Of a stretch of DNA of 9,391 nt, positions 143 to 9,149 are shown piece by piece. Source of the stretch: Nitrospinae bacterium RIFCSPLOWO2_12_FULL_45_22 (lineage in GTDB: Bacteria; 2-12-FULL-45-22); assembly GCA_001803565.1 (NCBI GenBank), contig MHDQ01000016.1:1-9391 (forward strand). The letters are read 5' to 3'. The notes under the pieces are model-generated. The model was not told where the DNA came from. It worked only from the letters and a program-made list of their open reading frames with translations, and did not search any database. Positions within the stretch are counted from its first letter, which is position 1. The number at the start of each line of letters is the position of its first letter. The position numbers and the translations under genes are program-made.

Positions 143-592
143 GTGAATGTTGTGTTGTTTTATCTTTTAGCACTAATCCGGAATGGAAATTTTCATATTC
201 AAGAACCAAAAGACTTTTTGTTTCGGTTTCAAGCCCGCCCAGAGGTTTACTTATATATTAACGGGGAGGGTAGGCATATACCCGATCCTCATACTTTATT
301 TCTTCTCGGTTGGTCTTTTAATGATGTAGTTATTTTAGATAAGAAAGAATTTAATGCATTTCAAATTGGAAGACCACTTGAGAGTGTTTTAAATGCACGC
401 CTAGTTCGCCCTGATGATAGTGAGAACGAGGTCTGGATGATTTTAGAGGGTAGGAAAAGACGTATAGATCCCACGATAATTAATTCGATAAAAAACTTAA
501 ATCCTAAACGAATAATAGATGCTATTCCTCGATCACAAATTGCAGCATGGCAGGAAGACAAACCTTTGGCAGCTATTATCTTTCAGAATTAG
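143..592 (+). CDS. Membrane-anchored protein with two imperfect soluble repeats (3' part of an interrupted gene)
   Basis: Unrecognised protein of 149 residues if translation restarts at GTG 143. The frame is open upstream to the TGA at 83-85, and the two segments together read as a two-helix membrane anchor (second helix around VLLGSFVLVNVVLFYLLALI, partly before residue 1) followed by a soluble domain. The soluble part has two imperfect repeats of about 45 residues: residues 35-79 (VYLYINGEGRHIPDP, then LGW..NDV, ending GRPL) and residues 98-142 (VWMILEGRKRRIDP, then LNPKRI, ending DKPL). Repeats with an R-H/R-I-x-D-P turn occur in many secreted or membrane-attached bacterial proteins; I know no defined function for them. 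The gene is visibly more AT-rich than the operon to its right. Its TAG stop lies two bases before an attC-like site, as expected of an integron cassette gene. No start-deciding ribosome binding site is evident before GTG 143. Confidence 0.5.
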   Translation: MNVVLFYLLALIRNGNFHIQEPKDFLFRFQARPEVYLYINGEGRHIPDPHTLFLLGWSFNDVVILDKKEFNAFQIGRPLESVLNARLVRPDDSENEVWMILEGRKRRIDPTIINSIKNLNPKRIIDAIPRSQIAAWQEDKPLAAIIFQN

Positions 593-1371: not shown

Positions 1372-4300
1372 TTATGTCTCGCATTTTACGGATAAAGGAG
1401 ACATGTGCGAAAGCCTCTCGGCTGATTTACGAACTGCCTCATTCAAATCCGTTGGGTGATAAATGATGGCATAATCCCAAAGCCCAAAACCACCCTCATT
1501 ATTTACTGCCCATACCCATCTTCGGGCAGCAGCTTCTTTTACCTCAGCCAGCGGATCATAACCTTTTACCTCTAAGATAAGGGTACCTACCTCTTTCCCA
1601 TCCCACTTGAGGTTAATCAAAAAGTCCGGTATATAATCCCTCTTCTCACCATTATGGAAATAGGGTATAGCAAATCCTAGATTAAAATTACGCGCAAAGG
1701 AAATCACATGATCATGCTTATCCAGATAGAATTTGGCTATCTGTTCCCATTTTTCCGTATCTGCGATAGCGTAGTTAAGATGACTCCTTTGGCACTCCAC
1801 CACTTTTTTGCTAGTCCAGAAGTCTACATCCCCAGTTGAGCCCGGCCCGCGATTTATCTCATAACGGGGTAGTTCAGATGCATCACCTTCCTTTACATAT
1901 GGAATTATAGCACCCATAATGGTTTCAACCGCCCAACCATAATAGGGATTGAGGAACAGGTCTCTTAAATCTGTCCCACCCATTGGTTGAACCCGGGTTT
2001 TAATAAATTGCCTCACAATATTTAAGACCTGAGGAAAAAGCACATGGACAGGTATCTCACACCCGGAGCTACCGGACAATTTATCCGTTAAAGTGCGAGC
2101 CAGCTCAAACTCCAGTTCCTGCAACCTCTTGGTCTTTCTCCATTCTTCGAGGGAAATTTCATCAGTACGCCCAGGCCCAAAAAGGGAGAGCCGTCCAGTT
2201 TCTGTAGCGGATAACCCTTTTACCCTTACCTCGTCAGGTATATTTGCGGGGTCCAATAGCAGGGTCGGGACCCGCGACCAGTCCACCTGAATACTGTTTC
2301 CTATCTTATAAACATACCCCTCTACCCGGGGGAAGCGGATCTCCAGATGGTCTTTCTCTGGAGAAAGGGCATGAACATGGTAGATTTTTGCTGGAGGCTG
2401 CTTATGTTCTTTAGGATTAGTTTTTAGAGGTATGAGCTCAAAAGGGACGCCATAGACCTTGGCTAATTCTTCAGCCTGAAGGTCATGGTATTGGGAGCGT
2501 CGAAGGGCCCTTCCCACTACTTGCTCACAAAGAAGCTGTGATTGGAATGGCCGTAAGCCTACGATATGGGTCACAGTATGGGCATCCCACCCTTCAGCAA
2601 GCATGGCAACAGAAACAATGCACCGGACATCCCTGCCCGGGGGAATGGATGGGTCTATCACCCTTTCCCCCAATTCTATAACCTTTCGATTTACCTTCTC
2701 TATCAAGAGAGTATATTCCGGAGGAGGTTTTCCTCCGGGCCATACCGTTTTACCAATGGTATCTAGAATAAAACGCAGGCGGCGGTTCTCATCGGTTTTG
2801 ATGGCGCCGGTTTCCAACTCTTCAATTACTTTAGAATCAATCCTCACAGTATATTCCTGGCCATTTCTATTCAAGAATTCTTCAATAGGCGGGGCAGTTT
2901 CGCTCCCTCCTTCAGCCATCCACTCATAGATAACCCGGGCAAGTTTTGTGTCCCGGCAAACAATAACGAATACCGGCGGTACCGAGGGCCTTGAACCTTT
3001 CTCTGCCTCCTTTTGCCATTCCAGAAAGGTCTCTCGCCATAGCCCTGCCAATTGAGCAATGGGTGCCTGGGCCCATTTAAGCACTGCCTCAGGTTTTATT
3101 TGGCCCCGCCTGCCACCTTTTTCAGTCCTAGTGAGTTTTTCTTCTATAATCCATCTCCAGACATTAAAATAGGCAGGGATGGGTCTGCCGGTGGTATCTT
3201 CTATAGGCAATTGTGGGATCTTTACTAGACCGGATTCTATGGCATCAATCAATCCGAAGTCCGATACTACCCAGGGAAAAGGCCGCCCCGGTTCATTGCC
3301 GGTATTGTTCAGATAGAAAGGTGTTGCCGATAAATCAACGCAGAAGTTGATCCCCCTTATCCGGTTTATCTTGTCCAGTCCATCAATCCAGACAGTGGCT
3401 TCTTTCCTTTCTACCTCGGAAAGCTCGTCCTCTTCTTCTATTTCGGGGGTATTGTCTAATTGCCTGATCCGGTAAGCATGATGTGCCTCATCGTTAAAAA
3501 CCAGGATGTTTCCTTTCCCTTTTACTGACCACAATACCTTTTCTACTAAGGCGGTATCTGACTCAAAGTATTTTGTCTCGATGGTCTCTACCTTTTTCCC
3601 GTCTATATCTCGGGTAACCCGTACCTTTTTCTCTACACCCCGCTTTACTACCCGGGATGAATCCTTCCCAACGGTATTCATCTCCTGAGGTTCCAGAACA
3701 TGCCAGTTGGTAATAATTACCTGACCTTTCCTTAAGTCGCTCATCAGGTGAGGAAGAACTAAATCAAAGGTTCGGTAAATACTGGTCTCACCCTTATTGG
3801 GGTCGAGTTCCTGAAGTCTGTCCCGTATGGTTATGTTAGGGCATATAATCAGTACTGTATCAGAAAAGCGGGCATCAGAACGATTGGCTACCTTGTTTAA
3901 GATACTCCAGGCTGCCAGCATCGCCATAACCGTAGTCTTTCCAGTCCCGGTAGCCATCTTGCAGGCATACCGCAGAAACCCAGAATACCCCTTCTCCCTG
4001 GCTTCCTTAGACGGTTCATCCCCCGGTATGGTGATCCCTTGCCGGTAATCGGCCCTAGCCTCGGTTAAAAAGATGATGGTCTCAACCGCTTCTCGCTGAC
4101 AGAAAAAGAGCCGTCTTTCCCTCTCCTCTTGACCCCAGTATTTAAGTAATTCATCCGTAACCAAGGTTATCCCAGGGTATCCTGACTCTCTCCATTCTTT
4201 AAGACTTTTGCGGATTTCATTTGCCAGCTCTAAGGGGAATTTGGTCCCAATATCGTCTGCCTGGTCTTTGGTGGTCTGCCTTCCTGGAGGGCGGAAGTAA

Positions 4301-4425
4301 TAAAAGGCCTCCCGCTGCCCTTCCATAAGTTTTGGTCGTTCACCCTTTTCTATAAGATAATAGTGACGAGGCTCCTCATAGGCATCATTGATTATAGGTT
4401 TAATGACTTCATTAAACTGGCTCAT
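1372..4425 (-). CDS. Type III-like restriction endonuclease subunit: SF2 helicase with C-terminal PD-(D/E)XK nuclease (BPTD_3080-like)
   Basis: This 1017-residue protein should be the ATP-driven, DNA-cleaving subunit of the restriction system. Helicase motifs are clear: a Q-motif-like FFCQREAVE (107-115), Walker A MATGTGKT (157-164), DEAH-box NDEAHH (311-316), motif III-like SATPF (366-370), and motif VI QVVGRALRR (635-643), preceded by AEGWDAHTV (610-618). The C-terminal third has a PD-(D/E)XK nuclease core: PDF with D934, then E952-V-K954 in LILEVKG. An earlier GDVDFW/VVECQRSHLNY stretch (865-885) is part of the same region. The size and order match NCBI's BPTD_3080 family of restriction endonucleases, which I recall without a search. 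The start ATG overlaps the methyltransferase stop as ATGA (4422-4425), so translation is coupled. All key residues are present and there is no frameshift, so it is probably active. Its end is followed by the degraded second module. Confidence 0.9.
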   Translation of the reverse strand: MSQFNEVIKPIINDAYEEPRHYYLIEKGERPKLMEGQREAFYYFRPPGRQTTKDQADDIGTKFPLELANEIRKSLKEWRESGYPGITLVTDELLKYWGQEERERRLFFCQREAVETIIFLTEARADYRQGITIPGDEPSKEAREKGYSGFLRYACKMATGTGKTTVMAMLAAWSILNKVANRSDARFSDTVLIICPNITIRDRLQELDPNKGETSIYRTFDLVLPHLMSDLRKGQVIITNWHVLEPQEMNTVGKDSSRVVKRGVEKKVRVTRDIDGKKVETIETKYFESDTALVEKVLWSVKGKGNILVFNDEAHHAYRIRQLDNTPEIEEEDELSEVERKEATVWIDGLDKINRIRGINFCVDLSATPFYLNNTGNEPGRPFPWVVSDFGLIDAIESGLVKIPQLPIEDTTGRPIPAYFNVWRWIIEEKLTRTEKGGRRGQIKPEAVLKWAQAPIAQLAGLWRETFLEWQKEAEKGSRPSVPPVFVIVCRDTKLARVIYEWMAEGGSETAPPIEEFLNRNGQEYTVRIDSKVIEELETGAIKTDENRRLRFILDTIGKTVWPGGKPPPEYTLLIEKVNRKVIELGERVIDPSIPPGRDVRCIVSVAMLAEGWDAHTVTHIVGLRPFQSQLLCEQVVGRALRRSQYHDLQAEELAKVYGVPFELIPLKTNPKEHKQPPAKIYHVHALSPEKDHLEIRFPRVEGYVYKIGNSIQVDWSRVPTLLLDPANIPDEVRVKGLSATETGRLSLFGPGRTDEISLEEWRKTKRLQELEFELARTLTDKLSGSSGCEIPVHVLFPQVLNIVRQFIKTRVQPMGGTDLRDLFLNPYYGWAVETIMGAIIPYVKEGDASELPRYEINRGPGSTGDVDFWTSKKVVECQRSHLNYAIADTEKWEQIAKFYLDKHDHVISFARNFNLGFAIPYFHNGEKRDYIPDFLINLKWDGKEVGTLILEVKGYDPLAEVKEAAARRWVWAVNNEGGFGLWDYAIIYHPTDLNEAVRKSAERLSHMSPLSVKCET

Positions 4426-7133
4426 CGTTCTATCTCGGCCTCATCAAGGGACTTCACCACCATTAATTCGTTACCCCGGTCGTCAATGACCTTGACCGCT
4501 ATCCGGCCATGTTCTCCAGCAACAAATGGCTCGCTTATAGTGCCCGATAAATGCTCCCAAACACTGTCTTCAAACGTACCTTTAAGGGCCTTTTGTAGAC
4601 TGTCCCAGGCCCGGGTACGGGGAAAGAATGCCTGAGTTACACAAAAAGCTAGATTATTGTAGTCGCTGTCCAGGAACCAGGCCGGAACATCATCTCCCCT
4701 GGAATGGTAAACCTCGCAAGTCACCGGATCGAAGACATCCAGGCCTAAAAGCTCCACCTGATATAACTCTGAGCCATCCTTTGCCTTTTTGTCTGTGCGT
4801 GTCAGACGGATCTCCGGGGCACCGGTGACACTGAAGACCTGACTGGAGCGGGTGGTCTTCAAGAGGTCACTCATCTGCAGGTCCATGGTAGCCTGCACAT
4901 AGGTGGCCGGGATACCCACAACATCAAGGCAGGAATGAATAAACCTGGTAGCCTTATCCTGGATGGCAAAGCCGATAATATAGAGATGGGAAAAGCTCTT
5001 GGCGTAAGCCTCCCGGGCCGCGGCAAAGACCATCTGCTCCGTCACTGGTCCATGCTCCGGTCCAAAATAAAAGGCGACCGGTTTTTCTTTGTCATTGGCT
5101 ACCACTGCCTCAGCATGAATATCCATAGCCCTGGCCGGACGGCGCACATTCTTGAATTCTACGGTCTGATTGCCCGGCAGTCTCAATAGCGGGGAGTGGC
5201 GGAGCACCTCTATCATCCGGTTGATATAATCACCGTATTCAGTCTCACCCTCTGCTACTTTGCCCGGTTCTTTTTCCTCTATCTGGATGGGTGTAGGTAT
5301 GGTGGCTTCTACTACAAAGGGACCAGAGACCCTGGTAATGCTCGTAACCACTTCGGGCCGGTCCACCAGCACCTCCTCGTCAGGTGGTTGGTTCTGGGCG
5401 ATGGATTTGAGGGTGATGTGGGGCACAATGCCGCCTACTTCCTCTCCCTTCTTATTCTGCTTGCGTTTATAGACAAAGCCACCGGAGGGCCCTTTAGCCG
5501 GGTCCCGCAGTTCATAATAAGCAAAGGTAGCGGTTAAAAGTCGCTGCCGGGCAAGGGCTAAGGGGACCCGGCTGGTATCAATCGTGATCCAGCGCCTGCC
5601 CCACTGCTCAGCCACATAAGCCGTGGTGCCTGAACCACAGGTAGGGTCAAGGATCAGGTCACCAGGGTCAGTAGTCATAAGAAGACAACGGGAGATTGGT
5701 AGCTCTGATGTCTGAACTACGTAATCCTTAATGATCTCCGGACCAGTATCATTCCAGGTAGAAGTTAATTCAACATACGGAAAATCATCAAAAAACGCTA
5801 TTGACCGCAAAACGCTTTTACTTTCAGTAACTCGATTACTTTGCACTAATCTGGAAAACCCTTCATCAGAGTGCCGCCAGTGCATTCCCTCTGGAATAGA
5901 CCACATTTTGTCGTTGAATTCTCTTTCTTTATTATTGCCAGTTCCTTTCGAATGCATTGGTAAAGTGGAAAAGAAGCGACTTCCCTTTTTCACAAGTTCT
6001 GGATTTTGTTTCTCTTCATCTGTTAGTGGCCGGCGTGTTCCATTTTGATCTTCGATGTTAGAGAAGATAGATGTATCCAATTCTTGAGGAAGAAAGAGCC
6101 GCCGAAACTTTATCTTTTGCTTTTCTTTAGCATACCAGATGAGGAAATCTGTTGTTTGTGGAAGTCCGTGAGCCTTCTTGGTTCCGCCTGTAACCTTGAA
6201 AGATACCATCCCGCAGAAATTCTCTGCCCCAAATACCTCATCCAACAATTCTCTGACATGATGGACATTTTCATCGCCGATCTGGACAAAGATTGAGCCT
6301 GAAGGATGAAGCAGTTCTCTGGCAAGCAAAAACCGGTCTCGCAGATAGGTAAGGTAGGAATGGAGTCCCAGCTCCCAGGTATCGCGATAGGCCTGTACCA
6401 TCTCTGGCTCCCTGGTCATATGCTCATCATCACCATGCTTCACATCCCGCTTGCGTATGAAGGGCTGGAAATTGGAGCCAAACTTGACCCCATAAGGCGG
6501 GTCCATATAAATCATCTGCACCTGCCCGCCCAATCCTTCATACTCTAAGAGTGAGTTCATCGCTACCAGAGAGTCACCAAGGATCATCCGATTTACCCAG
6601 GGGATCTTGTGGACATAGGCCTTTAGGATACGGTCAGTGATGGAGAGATCATGATCAGCAAAAAGTTCCATCTGTCTAGCCTTATCTTTTTTACGATGCT
6701 TCAGGGTCTCAAGAATGGCCTGGGTGGAGAGCCGTTCATGGATAAAAAGTGGCAGGGTGGGCACGTTAAACTCCGTCCGCTCAGCCTTACCGGCCCAGTT
6801 AAGGAAATGGCGGGACATACGTTTCAGGGCATCGGCAGCAGTTTTGATTTGCAACAAAAGTCCTTCCAGTTTTGCAGGGTCATCCTTATGCCCTGCTAAC
6901 TTTTCCGTTAGCTCCTCTATCTCCGCAATCAGCGCCTCTACCCTTTCCCGGTCAGCATTTATATCCCAGGAAAGTGATGGATCAATACTGGAATCATAGC
7001 GATAGGTCTTTGGCAATCTCTTTCTCTTAAACTGCGCCTGTAACCCTACATCCGGCCGTAATAAGCTCTCGGCCTCCTTGTGGTCATAAGGCCTGGTATT
7101 GGGTCCTATACTTTTTTTCTTACCCGCTGCCAT
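4422..7133 (-). CDS. Type III-like beta-class DNA N6-adenine (or N4-cytosine) methyltransferase with long C-terminal extension
   Basis: This is the modification subunit of the restriction pair. It transfers a methyl group from S-adenosylmethionine to an exocyclic amino group, most likely adenine N6. In the beta-class (PF01555-type) order, catalytic motif IV DPPYG (211-215) comes first and the SAM-binding motif I DPTCGSGTT (496-504) comes later. Between them, roughly 300-490, is the variable region where target recognition is expected. Residues 1-50 carry a conserved-looking block (YDHK, AESLLRPD, GLQAQF) also kept in the remnant at 913. Residues 60-110 look helical and charged. From about 550 to 903 there is an extra region without motifs I can name, probably for contact with the nuclease subunit. 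At 903 residues it is longer than a typical type III Mod (about 600-700). AAGGG at 7145-7141 is the ribosome binding site, 7 bases before ATG, 13 bases after the radical SAM gene. The stop overlaps the nuclease start. Confidence 0.9.
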   Translation of the reverse strand: MAAGKKKSIGPNTRPYDHKEAESLLRPDVGLQAQFKRKRLPKTYRYDSSIDPSLSWDINADRERVEALIAEIEELTEKLAGHKDDPAKLEGLLLQIKTAADALKRMSRHFLNWAGKAERTEFNVPTLPLFIHERLSTQAILETLKHRKKDKARQMELFADHDLSITDRILKAYVHKIPWVNRMILGDSLVAMNSLLEYEGLGGQVQMIYMDPPYGVKFGSNFQPFIRKRDVKHGDDEHMTREPEMVQAYRDTWELGLHSYLTYLRDRFLLARELLHPSGSIFVQIGDENVHHVRELLDEVFGAENFCGMVSFKVTGGTKKAHGLPQTTDFLIWYAKEKQKIKFRRLFLPQELDTSIFSNIEDQNGTRRPLTDEEKQNPELVKKGSRFFSTLPMHSKGTGNNKEREFNDKMWSIPEGMHWRHSDEGFSRLVQSNRVTESKSVLRSIAFFDDFPYVELTSTWNDTGPEIIKDYVVQTSELPISRCLLMTTDPGDLILDPTCGSGTTAYVAEQWGRRWITIDTSRVPLALARQRLLTATFAYYELRDPAKGPSGGFVYKRKQNKKGEEVGGIVPHITLKSIAQNQPPDEEVLVDRPEVVTSITRVSGPFVVEATIPTPIQIEEKEPGKVAEGETEYGDYINRMIEVLRHSPLLRLPGNQTVEFKNVRRPARAMDIHAEAVVANDKEKPVAFYFGPEHGPVTEQMVFAAAREAYAKSFSHLYIIGFAIQDKATRFIHSCLDVVGIPATYVQATMDLQMSDLLKTTRSSQVFSVTGAPEIRLTRTDKKAKDGSELYQVELLGLDVFDPVTCEVYHSRGDDVPAWFLDSDYNNLAFCVTQAFFPRTRAWDSLQKALKGTFEDSVWEHLSGTISEPFVAGEHGRIAVKVIDDRGNELMVVKSLDEAEIER

Positions 7134-7146
7134 TATTTAACCCTTT

Positions 7147-8325
7147 TTACCTCAGACAGTTACACCTTAGCCCCTTTACGTTCAAACCTACGGCCTTCCA
7201 GATCGGTGGAGGTTCTTTACACAAGGCAATAGCAATATCATCTTTATGCCTCTTTATTGCTTCTATGATGGTTCTAAATATCTTGATCCTAAGCCTCTCA
7301 GGATATCTCAGCTTTCCTCCTTCCTTTACCAAGCTTCTGTTTATCTTCAATAGGTGAGATTTAGGAAATCGGGAATTGATATGGTTAGCAAGGCCATTGG
7401 AGGGGCGGTATTCACCTATGGTTATCCTTGTAGGCCGCACATACTCAAATATCTTATCCACCAATGTTATGTAGTCCGTTTCCCAGGTAGAATAGAATAT
7501 GACTGGGTCTATCCTGAGACGCACTTCATAACCTGCTTTCTGGGCTTTGGCCGCAGCCGCTAAGCGAGACTCAGGGGAGGGTGTCCTATGTTCTAGCTGA
7601 TAAAAAACGGGATCAGTATTTATACTAAAAGAAATAATTGATAACCCTCCATGATCAAGAGAAAGGATATCATCCACGCAATCACTTTTTGTCAAAAATA
7701 ACAAGCGGGTATTTGGGGCATATTTGGGCATGAAGGGGATAATCTTTTGGGCAAACCCAGTTATATAATCCACAGCTAGGGGATCACCAAGCTCACCAAG
7801 GTTTAGAACTCTAAGATATTCTGGTATATTGGATTGGTCAAATTTAATAATTTCATCAAACATCTTCTCATAGTTAACAAAATGGGTGGAAACCGGCTGG
7901 GTTCGGAAGGTTAAATAGAGATAACAATACTCACACCAAAAATTGCAATTATTGTAGGCTGTTAGTTTATAAAATTTTGCGCACCGCCCGATCGGGTGTT
8001 GAAACTGTTCAATAAAAGGACTCGTTCTATTACGTAATAAAATAATACTTCTCTCAACCAAAAGCTTTTCTATGCCCTGTTTCCCATTAATTTCTGGTAT
8101 TTTATCCAGCCAGATCAAAGGCAACCCAGCATGGTTGGCTATCTGGTTAGCCCTTATTTCATGAGTCATACCCCGGATCGCCCATAATTCCCTCACAAGT
8201 AGCTCTTGTAAATCATTTTGCGGGTATGCTGGGTTTTTTTTACAAATCCTTCGGCTATGCTCAGGACAGGCTTGTTTTATAATGTCTACCCCTTCTGTCC
8301 GACAACCCTTTGGAATTCCCATCAC
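7147..8325 (-). CDS. Spore-photoproduct-lyase-like radical SAM protein, partner of TcmP
   Basis: Radical SAM enzyme of 392 residues. The [4Fe-4S]/SAM motif CxxxCxxC is C127, C131, C134 (CNFWCEYCYL). Other stretches follow the spore photoproduct lyase (SPL) pattern: THFVNYEKMFDEI (147-159), LGELGDPL (176-183), LLFLTKSD (208-215), ISFSINTDPVFYQLEHRTPSPESRL (in 231-255) and DPVIFYSTWETDY (273-285). In my memory alignment the SPL hydrogen-donor cysteine (B. subtilis Cys141) falls at Glu178, so it is SPL-like rather than a true SPL. The C-terminus has three more cysteines (369, 388, 390; CNC at the end) that might bind metal. The start is GTG 8323-8325 or ATG 8320-8322, both overlapping the TcmP stop. 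Residues 19-26 (ACPEHSRR) come from an inserted dispersed repeat, so the first ~30 residues are probably not ancestral. The substrate is unknown; neighbours suggest nucleic acid. Confidence 0.85.
   Translation of the reverse strand: MMGIPKGCRTEGVDIIKQACPEHSRRICKKNPAYPQNDLQELLVRELWAIRGMTHEIRANQIANHAGLPLIWLDKIPEINGKQGIEKLLVERSIILLRNRTSPFIEQFQHPIGRCAKFYKLTAYNNCNFWCEYCYLYLTFRTQPVSTHFVNYEKMFDEIIKFDQSNIPEYLRVLNLGELGDPLAVDYITGFAQKIIPFMPKYAPNTRLLFLTKSDCVDDILSLDHGGLSIISFSINTDPVFYQLEHRTPSPESRLAAAAKAQKAGYEVRLRIDPVIFYSTWETDYITLVDKIFEYVRPTRITIGEYRPSNGLANHINSRFPKSHLLKINRSLVKEGGKLRYPERLRIKIFRTIIEAIKRHKDDIAIALCKEPPPIWKAVGLNVKGLRCNCLR
8234..8271 (-). repeat. PEHSRR-type dispersed repeat inside the radical SAM gene, followed by an A8 run
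   Basis: The bases at 8247-8271 contain CCTTCGGCTATGCTCAGG followed by ACAGGC. This is a form of a short imperfect palindrome scattered through many environmental bacterial genomes; read on the minus strand it gives the telltale peptide ACPEHSRR. Here it is in frame at codons 19-26 of the radical SAM gene. Directly downstream in the reading direction is a run of eight A (8241-8234), encoding CKKNP, which could be prone to slippage. Identification rests on recognising the motif; genome-wide copies cannot be seen in this window. Confidence 0.7.
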
Positions 8326-9149
8326 AAATATTTCCTGTACTTATTAAAAATATCAGTGACAATCTTTTTGCCCGTTTCATTGTGGGAAGCAAAGAATAAA
8401 AAGTATAAAGGCCCCCCTTTACTATTTCTCATGAGTACTGGGTCGGAGACAAATTTAAATCCCGCAGCTCGTTCCAGCCTTTCTTCCTTGAACCATTTTC
8501 CAAGTTTAACATTATCCCCTATCTTAATCTGGGAATCAACACCAAAGAGGCCCATTTGCCTCACATATAAAACTCTCTTCCATTCCTCAGTCCCACAAAA
8601 TATGTTCATTCGTTCTATCTGATCCGGATCAGCAGAAAGGAGATCCTGATGTAATACATTGCGATTGATATCCATAAGCGGGAAGTTCAAAAAAATTTCA
8701 ACCGTTTCTAGCCTGGTTGCGGAGAGGATCGTTTCCCAGTTGAGATGCAAACCGTAAGGATCTAAGATACATAAAGCCCTTTTTCTGCTTCTATATGCCA
8801 GAGATGGGAAGATATTTTTTATCAGAATTTCATTACAATCTCCTTCGTAAACTTGTATGTTGGGATGCCCACCGACTAAGGTTCTAAGAGCTTCAGTTTT
8901 TTCTCTATCAATATCAATGTAGTGATATTCCGTAAAGAGATTTTCAATCTCAAGCGCGTTCAAAGGAGAACCCGGAATAAATTCTCCTGTTTTTCGTGAA
9001 ACGTTGATTCCAGCGCCAGCAAAGGCATCTATATATACATACCCTTTACACCACGCTTTCTTTTTCATTATCTTTGTATAGGCATTGGCATATTCCCTAA
9101 TAATATCCAACTTAATTTCGGACCAAATGCCTACCTTATCCAGTTTCAT
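8322..9149 (-). CDS. tcmP: Three-Cys-motif partner protein TcmP (Rossmann methyltransferase-like)
   Basis: This 275-residue protein matches the TcmP family, named for being encoded next to a radical-SAM-like protein with a three-cysteine motif; that is the arrangement here. Visible features fit a SAM-methyltransferase-like Rossmann fold: YIDAFAGAG (39-47) as motif I, YHYIDIDREK (75-84) as the acidic strand-2 end, VYEGDCNEIL (100-109), and the family signature LCILDPYGL (126-134) in the motif IV position. NFPLMDINRN (155-164) follows. No enzyme activity is established for the family as far as I know; it may methylate a nucleic acid or act as a partner of the radical SAM enzyme. The start is ATG 9147-9149 with AGAAGAG (9164-9158) 8 bases upstream. 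Its TGA stop overlaps the next gene's start. It is the first gene of the operon. Confidence 0.85.
   Translation of the reverse strand: MKLDKVGIWSEIKLDIIREYANAYTKIMKKKAWCKGYVYIDAFAGAGINVSRKTGEFIPGSPLNALEIENLFTEYHYIDIDREKTEALRTLVGGHPNIQVYEGDCNEILIKNIFPSLAYRSRKRALCILDPYGLHLNWETILSATRLETVEIFLNFPLMDINRNVLHQDLLSADPDQIERMNIFCGTEEWKRVLYVRQMGLFGVDSQIKIGDNVKLGKWFKEERLERAAGFKFVSDPVLMRNSKGGPLYFLFFASHNETGKKIVTDIFNKYRKYL

Follow-up and report, generated by a model that had tools for sequence, protein, structure and literature searches.

The 9,391-nucleotide window analysed here is the entire contig MHDQ01000016.1 (contig C16 in our numbering) of Nitrospinae bacterium RIFCSPLOWO2_12_FULL_45_22, and it carries four genes that place a restriction-modification (R-M) pair next to tcmP and a gene for a radical S-adenosylmethionine (SAM) protein resembling spore photoproduct lyase (SPL). 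The genes are closely packed on the minus strand, in the manner of a single operon, in the transcription order tcmP, SPL-like radical SAM gene, DNA methyltransferase gene and helicase-nuclease gene (Table 1), and the list of open reading frames (ORFs) gives overlaps at 8322-8325 and 4422-4425 and a gap of 13 bases between the SPL-like and methyltransferase genes. The overlap at 8322-8325 presupposes a GTG start for the SPL-like gene; with the in-frame ATG at 8322, the junction would instead read TGATG, with an overlap of one base. Upstream of tcmP, 242 bases are visible. The source bin is a fragmented metagenome-assembled genome (MAG; 85% complete, 321 contigs), and the composition of the window is typical for it. 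This layout, with its four co-directional genes, two overlaps and short gap, had been proposed in a preliminary description of the DNA and agrees with the ORF coordinates, and the four gene identities given there were confirmed by profile matches (TIGR04474 for TcmP, PF20903 and TIGR04070 for the SPL-like protein, PF01555 for the methyltransferase and NF046055 for the nuclease).

Table 1. Features of the locus, with positions in the 9,391-nucleotide window.
Feature	Position	Strand	Product length	Matches or basis
tcmP	8322-9149	minus	275 aa	TIGR04474, PADLOC PDC-M41A, predicted RlmJ-like fold
SPL-like radical SAM gene	7147-8325 (GTG start), 7147-8322 (ATG)	minus	392 aa	PF20903, TIGR04070
Beta-class amino DNA methyltransferase gene	4422-7133	minus	903 aa	PF01555, PADLOC MTase_III
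BPTD_3080-family helicase-nuclease gene	1372-4425	minus	1017 aa	NF046055, PF04851, PF08722
Degenerate second SPL-like/methyltransferase junction	793-1141	minus		blastn against 7010-7315; protein comparison

The nuclease matched NF046055, the 'BPTD_3080 family restriction endonuclease', with 1034 bits over residues 9-1000, exceeding the curated equivalog cut-off of 800. Besides the ResIII helicase domain (PF04851) and PF08722 assigned by Pfam, its translation retains four intact motifs, MATGTGKT (Walker A), DEAHH, SATPF and VGRALRR, followed at the C-terminus by an equally intact TnsA-like nuclease (PD...EVK). A phmmer search of the PDB with this protein returned no sequence match, and the match to the PADLOC model REase_III was weak and short (24 bits over 47 residues only). 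The methyltransferase scored 497 bits against PADLOC MTase_III, is related to PDB entries for type III Mod subunits, and has its DPPYG motif (motif IV) ahead of DPTCGSGTT (motif I). Its gene, on the same strand, overlaps that of the nuclease by four bases, and such pairing was seen in most related loci. In BPTD_3080 systems the space between nuclease and methyltransferase can hold cargo, including AAA_21/AAA_15 ATPases, HepT, a TIR protein, an SLFN/AlbA_2 protein and a DUF3368 protein, and Pfam matches in 34 cargo genes were mainly to defence or toxin families. A second BPTD_3080-family R-M system of the same genome (L092, contig C32) has a 579-aa gene separating its nuclease and methyltransferase genes and is unusual in composition for the bin. 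A literature search on BPTD_3080 yielded nothing informative.

TcmP, a class I methyltransferase-like protein, scored 202 bits against TIGR04474 (cut-off 53) and 186 bits against PDC-M41A; a sequence search of the PDB gave no match. The AlphaFold model (predicted template modelling score, pTM, 0.81) was closest to RlmJ (Z 16.6 over 204 residues, root-mean-square deviation 2.9, 16% identity), followed by the tRNA methyltransferase Trm1 (Z 13.7). The SAM motif DAFAGAG lies at residues 41-47 and motif IV reads D130-P-Y-G. Because 98 relatives conserve the DPY motif (aspartate 100%, D130 in 98/98; proline 99%) as well as the SAM loop D-x-F-A-G-x-G, TcmP is probably an active SAM enzyme. Its three-Cys neighbour in the window is the SPL-like protein with CX3CX2C, and a DUF5131 or SPL-like partner stands beside nearly all TcmP relatives, in agreement with the general pairing of TcmP and a three-Cys radical SAM-like protein that the preliminary description gave as background. 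DUF5131 and the SPL-like family appear to be remotely homologous, as judged from their profile alignment across the Cys motif (hhalign probability 84%, E 7e-6). TcmP (M41A) together with DUF5131 (M41B, Gp37-Gp68) constitutes the PADLOC candidate PDC-M41, and the DUF5131 protein of the Abyssobacteria locus L089 scored 408 bits against its PADLOC model. Literature searches on DUF5131/PF07505 and PDC-M41 yielded nothing informative; TcmP is mentioned once each in two S. meliloti papers, and a 2026 survey of bacteriophage exclusion (BREX) systems mentions neither TcmP nor radical SAM.

The partner in the window matched PF20903 with 103 bits and TIGR04070 with 129.9 bits, and no PADLOC model matched it. 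Its predicted structure aligned best with Geobacillus SPL (Z 33, 321 residues), ahead of the second-ranked radical SAM family (Z 15.5). The radical SAM motif CX3CX2C corresponds to C127/C131/C134, and the position of the SPL catalytic Cys (C140 in Geobacillus, C141 in B. subtilis) is taken by Glu178, within a GE[LI]xD motif; none of the aligned relatives carries Cys at this position. In B. subtilis SplB, C141 is required for the H-donation step (PMC3742179). Annotation as a spore photoproduct lyase was rejected, given this replacement, and the missing Cys makes an SPL-type repair reaction unlikely. The TIGR04070 score also falls far short of the equivalog cut-off, which is 400 bits. Seven Cys are invariant in 15 diverse relatives (23-76% identity), namely those of the radical SAM motif together with C115, C369, C388 and C390; C369, C388 and C390 make up an LCKE...CNC motif at the C-terminus that was not found in B. 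velezensis SplB or in two other SPL-family proteins. The natural reading of the four additional Cys is a putative auxiliary iron-sulphur (FeS) cluster site. At the start of the gene (8248-8270, minus strand), a repeat-like insert, CCTGTCCTGAGCATAGCCGAAGG, encodes CPEHSRR within a low-confidence N-terminus; it has a single other near copy in the bin, on contig C71, and a similar stretch lies at about 925-950, in the spacer of the second junction copy. A separate SPL-like subfamily (L233, L235, L236 and L237) has GKLxD and the same LCxE...CNC end; in some loci its members have ParB-like neighbours together with another three-Cys protein, and the subfamily looks phage- or mobile-element-borne.

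The genomic neighbourhoods of the SPL-like gene were then compared. It was present in 8/395 and 5/345 genomes of the two phyla searched, previously known ones counted, and the closest relatives of the window's TcmP (57-71% identity) include Desulfobacterota and Nitrospirota proteins whose partners are SPL-like. In 11 of the 15 loci of the close clade, the window included, an R-M methyltransferase lies near the SPL-like gene, and the systems are of several types: type I (L118), type IIG (L124, L125, L229 and L283-L287), Eco57I-like (L126) and, in the window, BPTD_3080. The other members lie on 4-kb contigs (L288 and L289), on a contig that ends 0.6 kb past the gene (L119), or beside an SLFN/AlbA_2 gene (L290). 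Proximity to an amino-methyltransferase in 10 of 13 loci (L126 was recognised later) has a chance probability of about 4e-6 given the background density of such genes, a background that comes from a motif proxy and a null that ignores the clustering of defence genes. TcmP-SPL-like fusions in L025 and L230 suggest that the two proteins work together; the L230 fusion (6952-8991) is convergent with methyltransferase genes encoding 734 and 467 aa. The SPL-like genes of L283 and L284 have Shedu-like and Avs3a-like genes for neighbours, in addition to type IIG enzymes and HKD-Snf2 helicases. A viral scan with the SPL-like alignment returned one distant phage relative; in viral-collection contigs, TcmP and DUF5131 pairs (L261 and L262) and an SPL-like gene (L198) were seen.

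The alternative partner, DUF5131, accompanies TcmP at R-M systems of the window's own family. Nine other contigs carry TcmP and DUF5131 with a BPTD_3080 R-M system, as a rule in the interval between its two genes: Abyssobacteria (L089, the same as L128), genomes G355 (L091) and G151 (L094), Chloroflexota (L135), Bryobacterales (L147), Desulfobacterium (L178), two Acidobacteria (L186, and L169, whose contig stops after TcmP) and an IMG/VR contig, beside a recombinase-like gene (L260). The commonest order is nuclease-TcmP-DUF5131-methyltransferase; L178 has the order of the window, with DUF5131 replacing the SPL-like gene. The NF046055 search gave 386 relatives, from which about 36 other nuclease loci, chosen regardless of TcmP, were read; three of these (L089, L091 and L094) hold TcmP and DUF5131 between nuclease and methyltransferase on one strand, where random placement expects 0.044 such links (P about 1.4e-5). 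A TcmP scan of GTDB contigs (80 best TcmP loci) added L135, L147, L169, L178 and L186, and a viral-contig scan added L260. The scatter of the linked members on both the TcmP tree (seven changes) and the nuclease tree (eight changes; nine labelled tips each) shows that the link was gained or lost repeatedly. Of the 92 genes that share operons with TcmP pairs (L118-L197), three were MutY-like (HhH-GPD with NUDIX) and three were ScpB.

Downstream of the nuclease gene, the window contains a second, degenerate copy of the SPL-like/methyltransferase junction, with the last ~55 SPL-like codons, a spacer longer than that of the intact copy and the first ~44 methyltransferase codons. It aligned with 7010-7315 at 75.6% over 353 bp (blastn), the SPL-like tail reaching 88% over 171 bp, and its proteins are 85% (SPL-like) and 78% (methyltransferase) identical to the window's own. 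The SPL-like/methyltransferase linkage predates the separation of the two copies, if these split from one. The preliminary description had taken the four genes for a single defence or DNA-modification system in which the TcmP/radical SAM pair would add or repair a mark, expected to recur in this order beyond chance and to be doubted if confined to this genome. A single system was not borne out, and we rejected it as a conserved unit for want of a second genome with the full set among the loci and genomes searched: many R-M types are joined, the partner is swapped and the genes also occur away from R-M. As for recurrence, the TcmP/three-Cys pair is linked to R-M beyond chance, but the four families were found together in the source genome only. 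Likewise, the exact set with the SPL-like gene was found only in this genome (one intact and one truncated copy), but TcmP and DUF5131 accompany the same R-M family in the nine contigs described above. The opposite idea, that TcmP and the SPL-like gene beside R-M are a peculiarity of the source genome, was also rejected, as the linkage recurs in other loci.

Taken together, the joining of the pair to many R-M types and the swapping of its partner show that TcmP and a three-Cys protein form a portable module, accessory to R-M systems, and not one fixed four-gene system. We read the present locus as a BPTD_3080 R-M pair that has acquired such a module, with an SPL-like partner, and in which the module alters a DNA base beyond methylation; we put the probability of this reading at roughly one half. 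As the add-on recurs beside many different restriction systems, it probably makes or handles a chemical mark on DNA, and base modification beyond methylation is our best guess at the chemistry. The R-M pair would methylate self DNA, and unmarked DNA would be cut through ATP-driven translocation. The SPL-fold enzyme would act on DNA by generating a substrate radical, its extra Cys set serving as an auxiliary FeS cluster or as a sulphur- or carbon-donor site. TcmP, as a presumed adenine-N6-type methyltransferase, could act before or after the SPL-like enzyme or place that enzyme on its target, and the two together would alter the base beyond plain methylation. The altered base may strengthen or vary the self-mark, or permit action on modified phage DNA. 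A bolder form, in which the SPL-like enzyme, with C115/C369/C388/C390 as an auxiliary FeS cluster, and TcmP install a base modification so far not known from DNA that serves in the self/non-self code of several R-M types, we regard as doubtful.

Several observations weigh against this reading. TcmP, the SPL-like gene and the BPTD_3080 pair were found together in no second genome, whether among the 80 best TcmP loci, the 740 genomes of two phyla or the 386 nuclease relatives. The GC content of the tcmP and SPL-like genes (39-41%) differs from that of the R-M pair (47-49.5%), so the two pairs have different histories. Away from R-M, the L025 fusion (8447-10606) lies between RecA-like and RecX-like genes and the L027 TcmP and SPL-like pair (8417-11302) near LexA/UmuD-like and UmuC-like genes (names assigned by eye from the sequence starts), and many TcmP and DUF5131 pairs are part of ordinary gene strings, among whose members are MutY-like genes. 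L284, L286, L288 (on a short contig) and L290 have an SPL-like gene with no visible TcmP nearby, which suggests that the radical SAM enzyme can work in its absence. Furthermore, the chance estimates presume random placement, and defence genes cluster in islands.

The strongest rival holds that TcmP and its radical-SAM-like partner are an independent anti-phage module of the PDC-M41 kind, embedded as cargo and sharing the promoter of the R-M genes but not their mark. Its strength comes from the BPTD_3080 systems themselves, in which defence genes of other kinds occupy the same position, making it a general cargo slot; TcmP with DUF5131 is a PADLOC candidate in its own right, the SPL-like gene also adjoins Avs3a-like and Shedu-like genes, and a type I R-M operon with DarTG2 inside it provides a published precedent (PMC12255303). 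However, R-M methyltransferases beside 11 of the 15 SPL-like clade members are a more specific association than islands generally would give, the SPL-like gene stands beside R-M also where TcmP is missing, and a toxin-like effector would not usually consist of two SAM enzymes of which one has a DNA-lyase fold. We consider an embedded independent module possible, though unlikely.

Two weaker alternatives give the pair another substrate or role. Were it a DNA-repair module reversing ultraviolet or alkylation lesions, recruited near R-M since cutting and methylation stress DNA, the SPL fold (Z 33 over 321 residues) and the pairs beside RecA/RecX-like, LexA/UmuC-like or MutY-like genes would be explained; the Glu at the position of the catalytic Cys (C141 in B. 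subtilis; PMC3742179) and a strong R-M linkage, unexpected for housekeeping repair, make this improbable. Modification of rRNA or tRNA, for example as protection against RNA-cutting effectors in R-M operons or as a mark on invader RNA, would suit the fold matches of TcmP, RlmJ first and Trm1 second. A shared methyltransferase fold leaves the substrate unfixed, however, and the partner has a DNA-enzyme fold and the linkage is to DNA methyltransferases, not RNA nucleases, so that we rank RNA modification lower still. An artefact of assembly or binning as the source of the arrangement, as a short contig in a fragmented MAG and the unlike GC of the two gene pairs might suggest, is very improbable in view of the intact frames, the short overlaps at two junctions, the diverged second junction on the same contig, the composition typical of the bin and the related arrangements in independent assemblies.

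Elsewhere in the window, a 149-aa ORF (143-592, plus strand) had no Pfam, NCBIfam or PADLOC match, and a DNA hairpin at 590-790 was no more stable than shuffled sequences (z -1.1).

TcmP with DUF5131 is already listed as a phage-defence candidate, and R-M operons are already known to harbour embedded defence genes. In the literature searched, which covered few subscription journals and preprints, we found no description of the SPL-like partner, its extra Cys or its linkage to R-M methyltransferases, nor of the chemistry of TcmP and three-Cys partners. One TcmP partner family thus combines a predicted DNA-enzyme fold, a replaced catalytic residue, four added invariant Cys and a consistent position next to several types of R-M methyltransferase. 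If it yields a new DNA nucleoside, radical-SAM chemistry would join what R-M systems do to DNA; if DNA is not changed, the pair would be an R-M-linked effector with unusual enzymology.

Compared with known systems, the R-M half is closest to the BPTD_3080 systems on plasmids of Mycobacterium avium and Planktothrix, whose nucleases reach 49% identity across almost their entire length and whose nuclease and methyltransferase genes likewise adjoin on one strand, but on the plasmids inspected the intervening space is empty or holds other cargo, with no TcmP/SPL-like pair. Type III R-M systems such as EcoP15I require two inversely oriented sites and ATP for cleavage and methylate one strand. The label 'type III-like' in the preliminary description is fair for the Mod-type methyltransferase and the ResIII helicase domain, but the nuclease belongs to a separately named family (NF046055), with a TnsA-like C-terminal nuclease and no PDB sequence match. 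RlmJ, the 23S rRNA A2030 adenine-N6 methyltransferase, shares the predicted fold of TcmP and differs in gene context, in the low identity noted above and in motif IV, which is DPYG in TcmP versus the DPPY typical of amino-methyltransferases. SplB shares the SPL fold (in the predicted model) and CX3CX2C with the window protein, whereas the latter has Glu178 for the catalytic Cys, as well as C115 and LCKE...CNC, neither of which occurs in SplB. Finally, PDC-M41 likewise joins TcmP to a three-Cys radical-SAM-like partner on one strand, but the partner in the window is SPL-like, with the Cys spacing CX3CX2C, extra invariant Cys and no PADLOC match, and SPL-like partners usually adjoin R-M methyltransferases.

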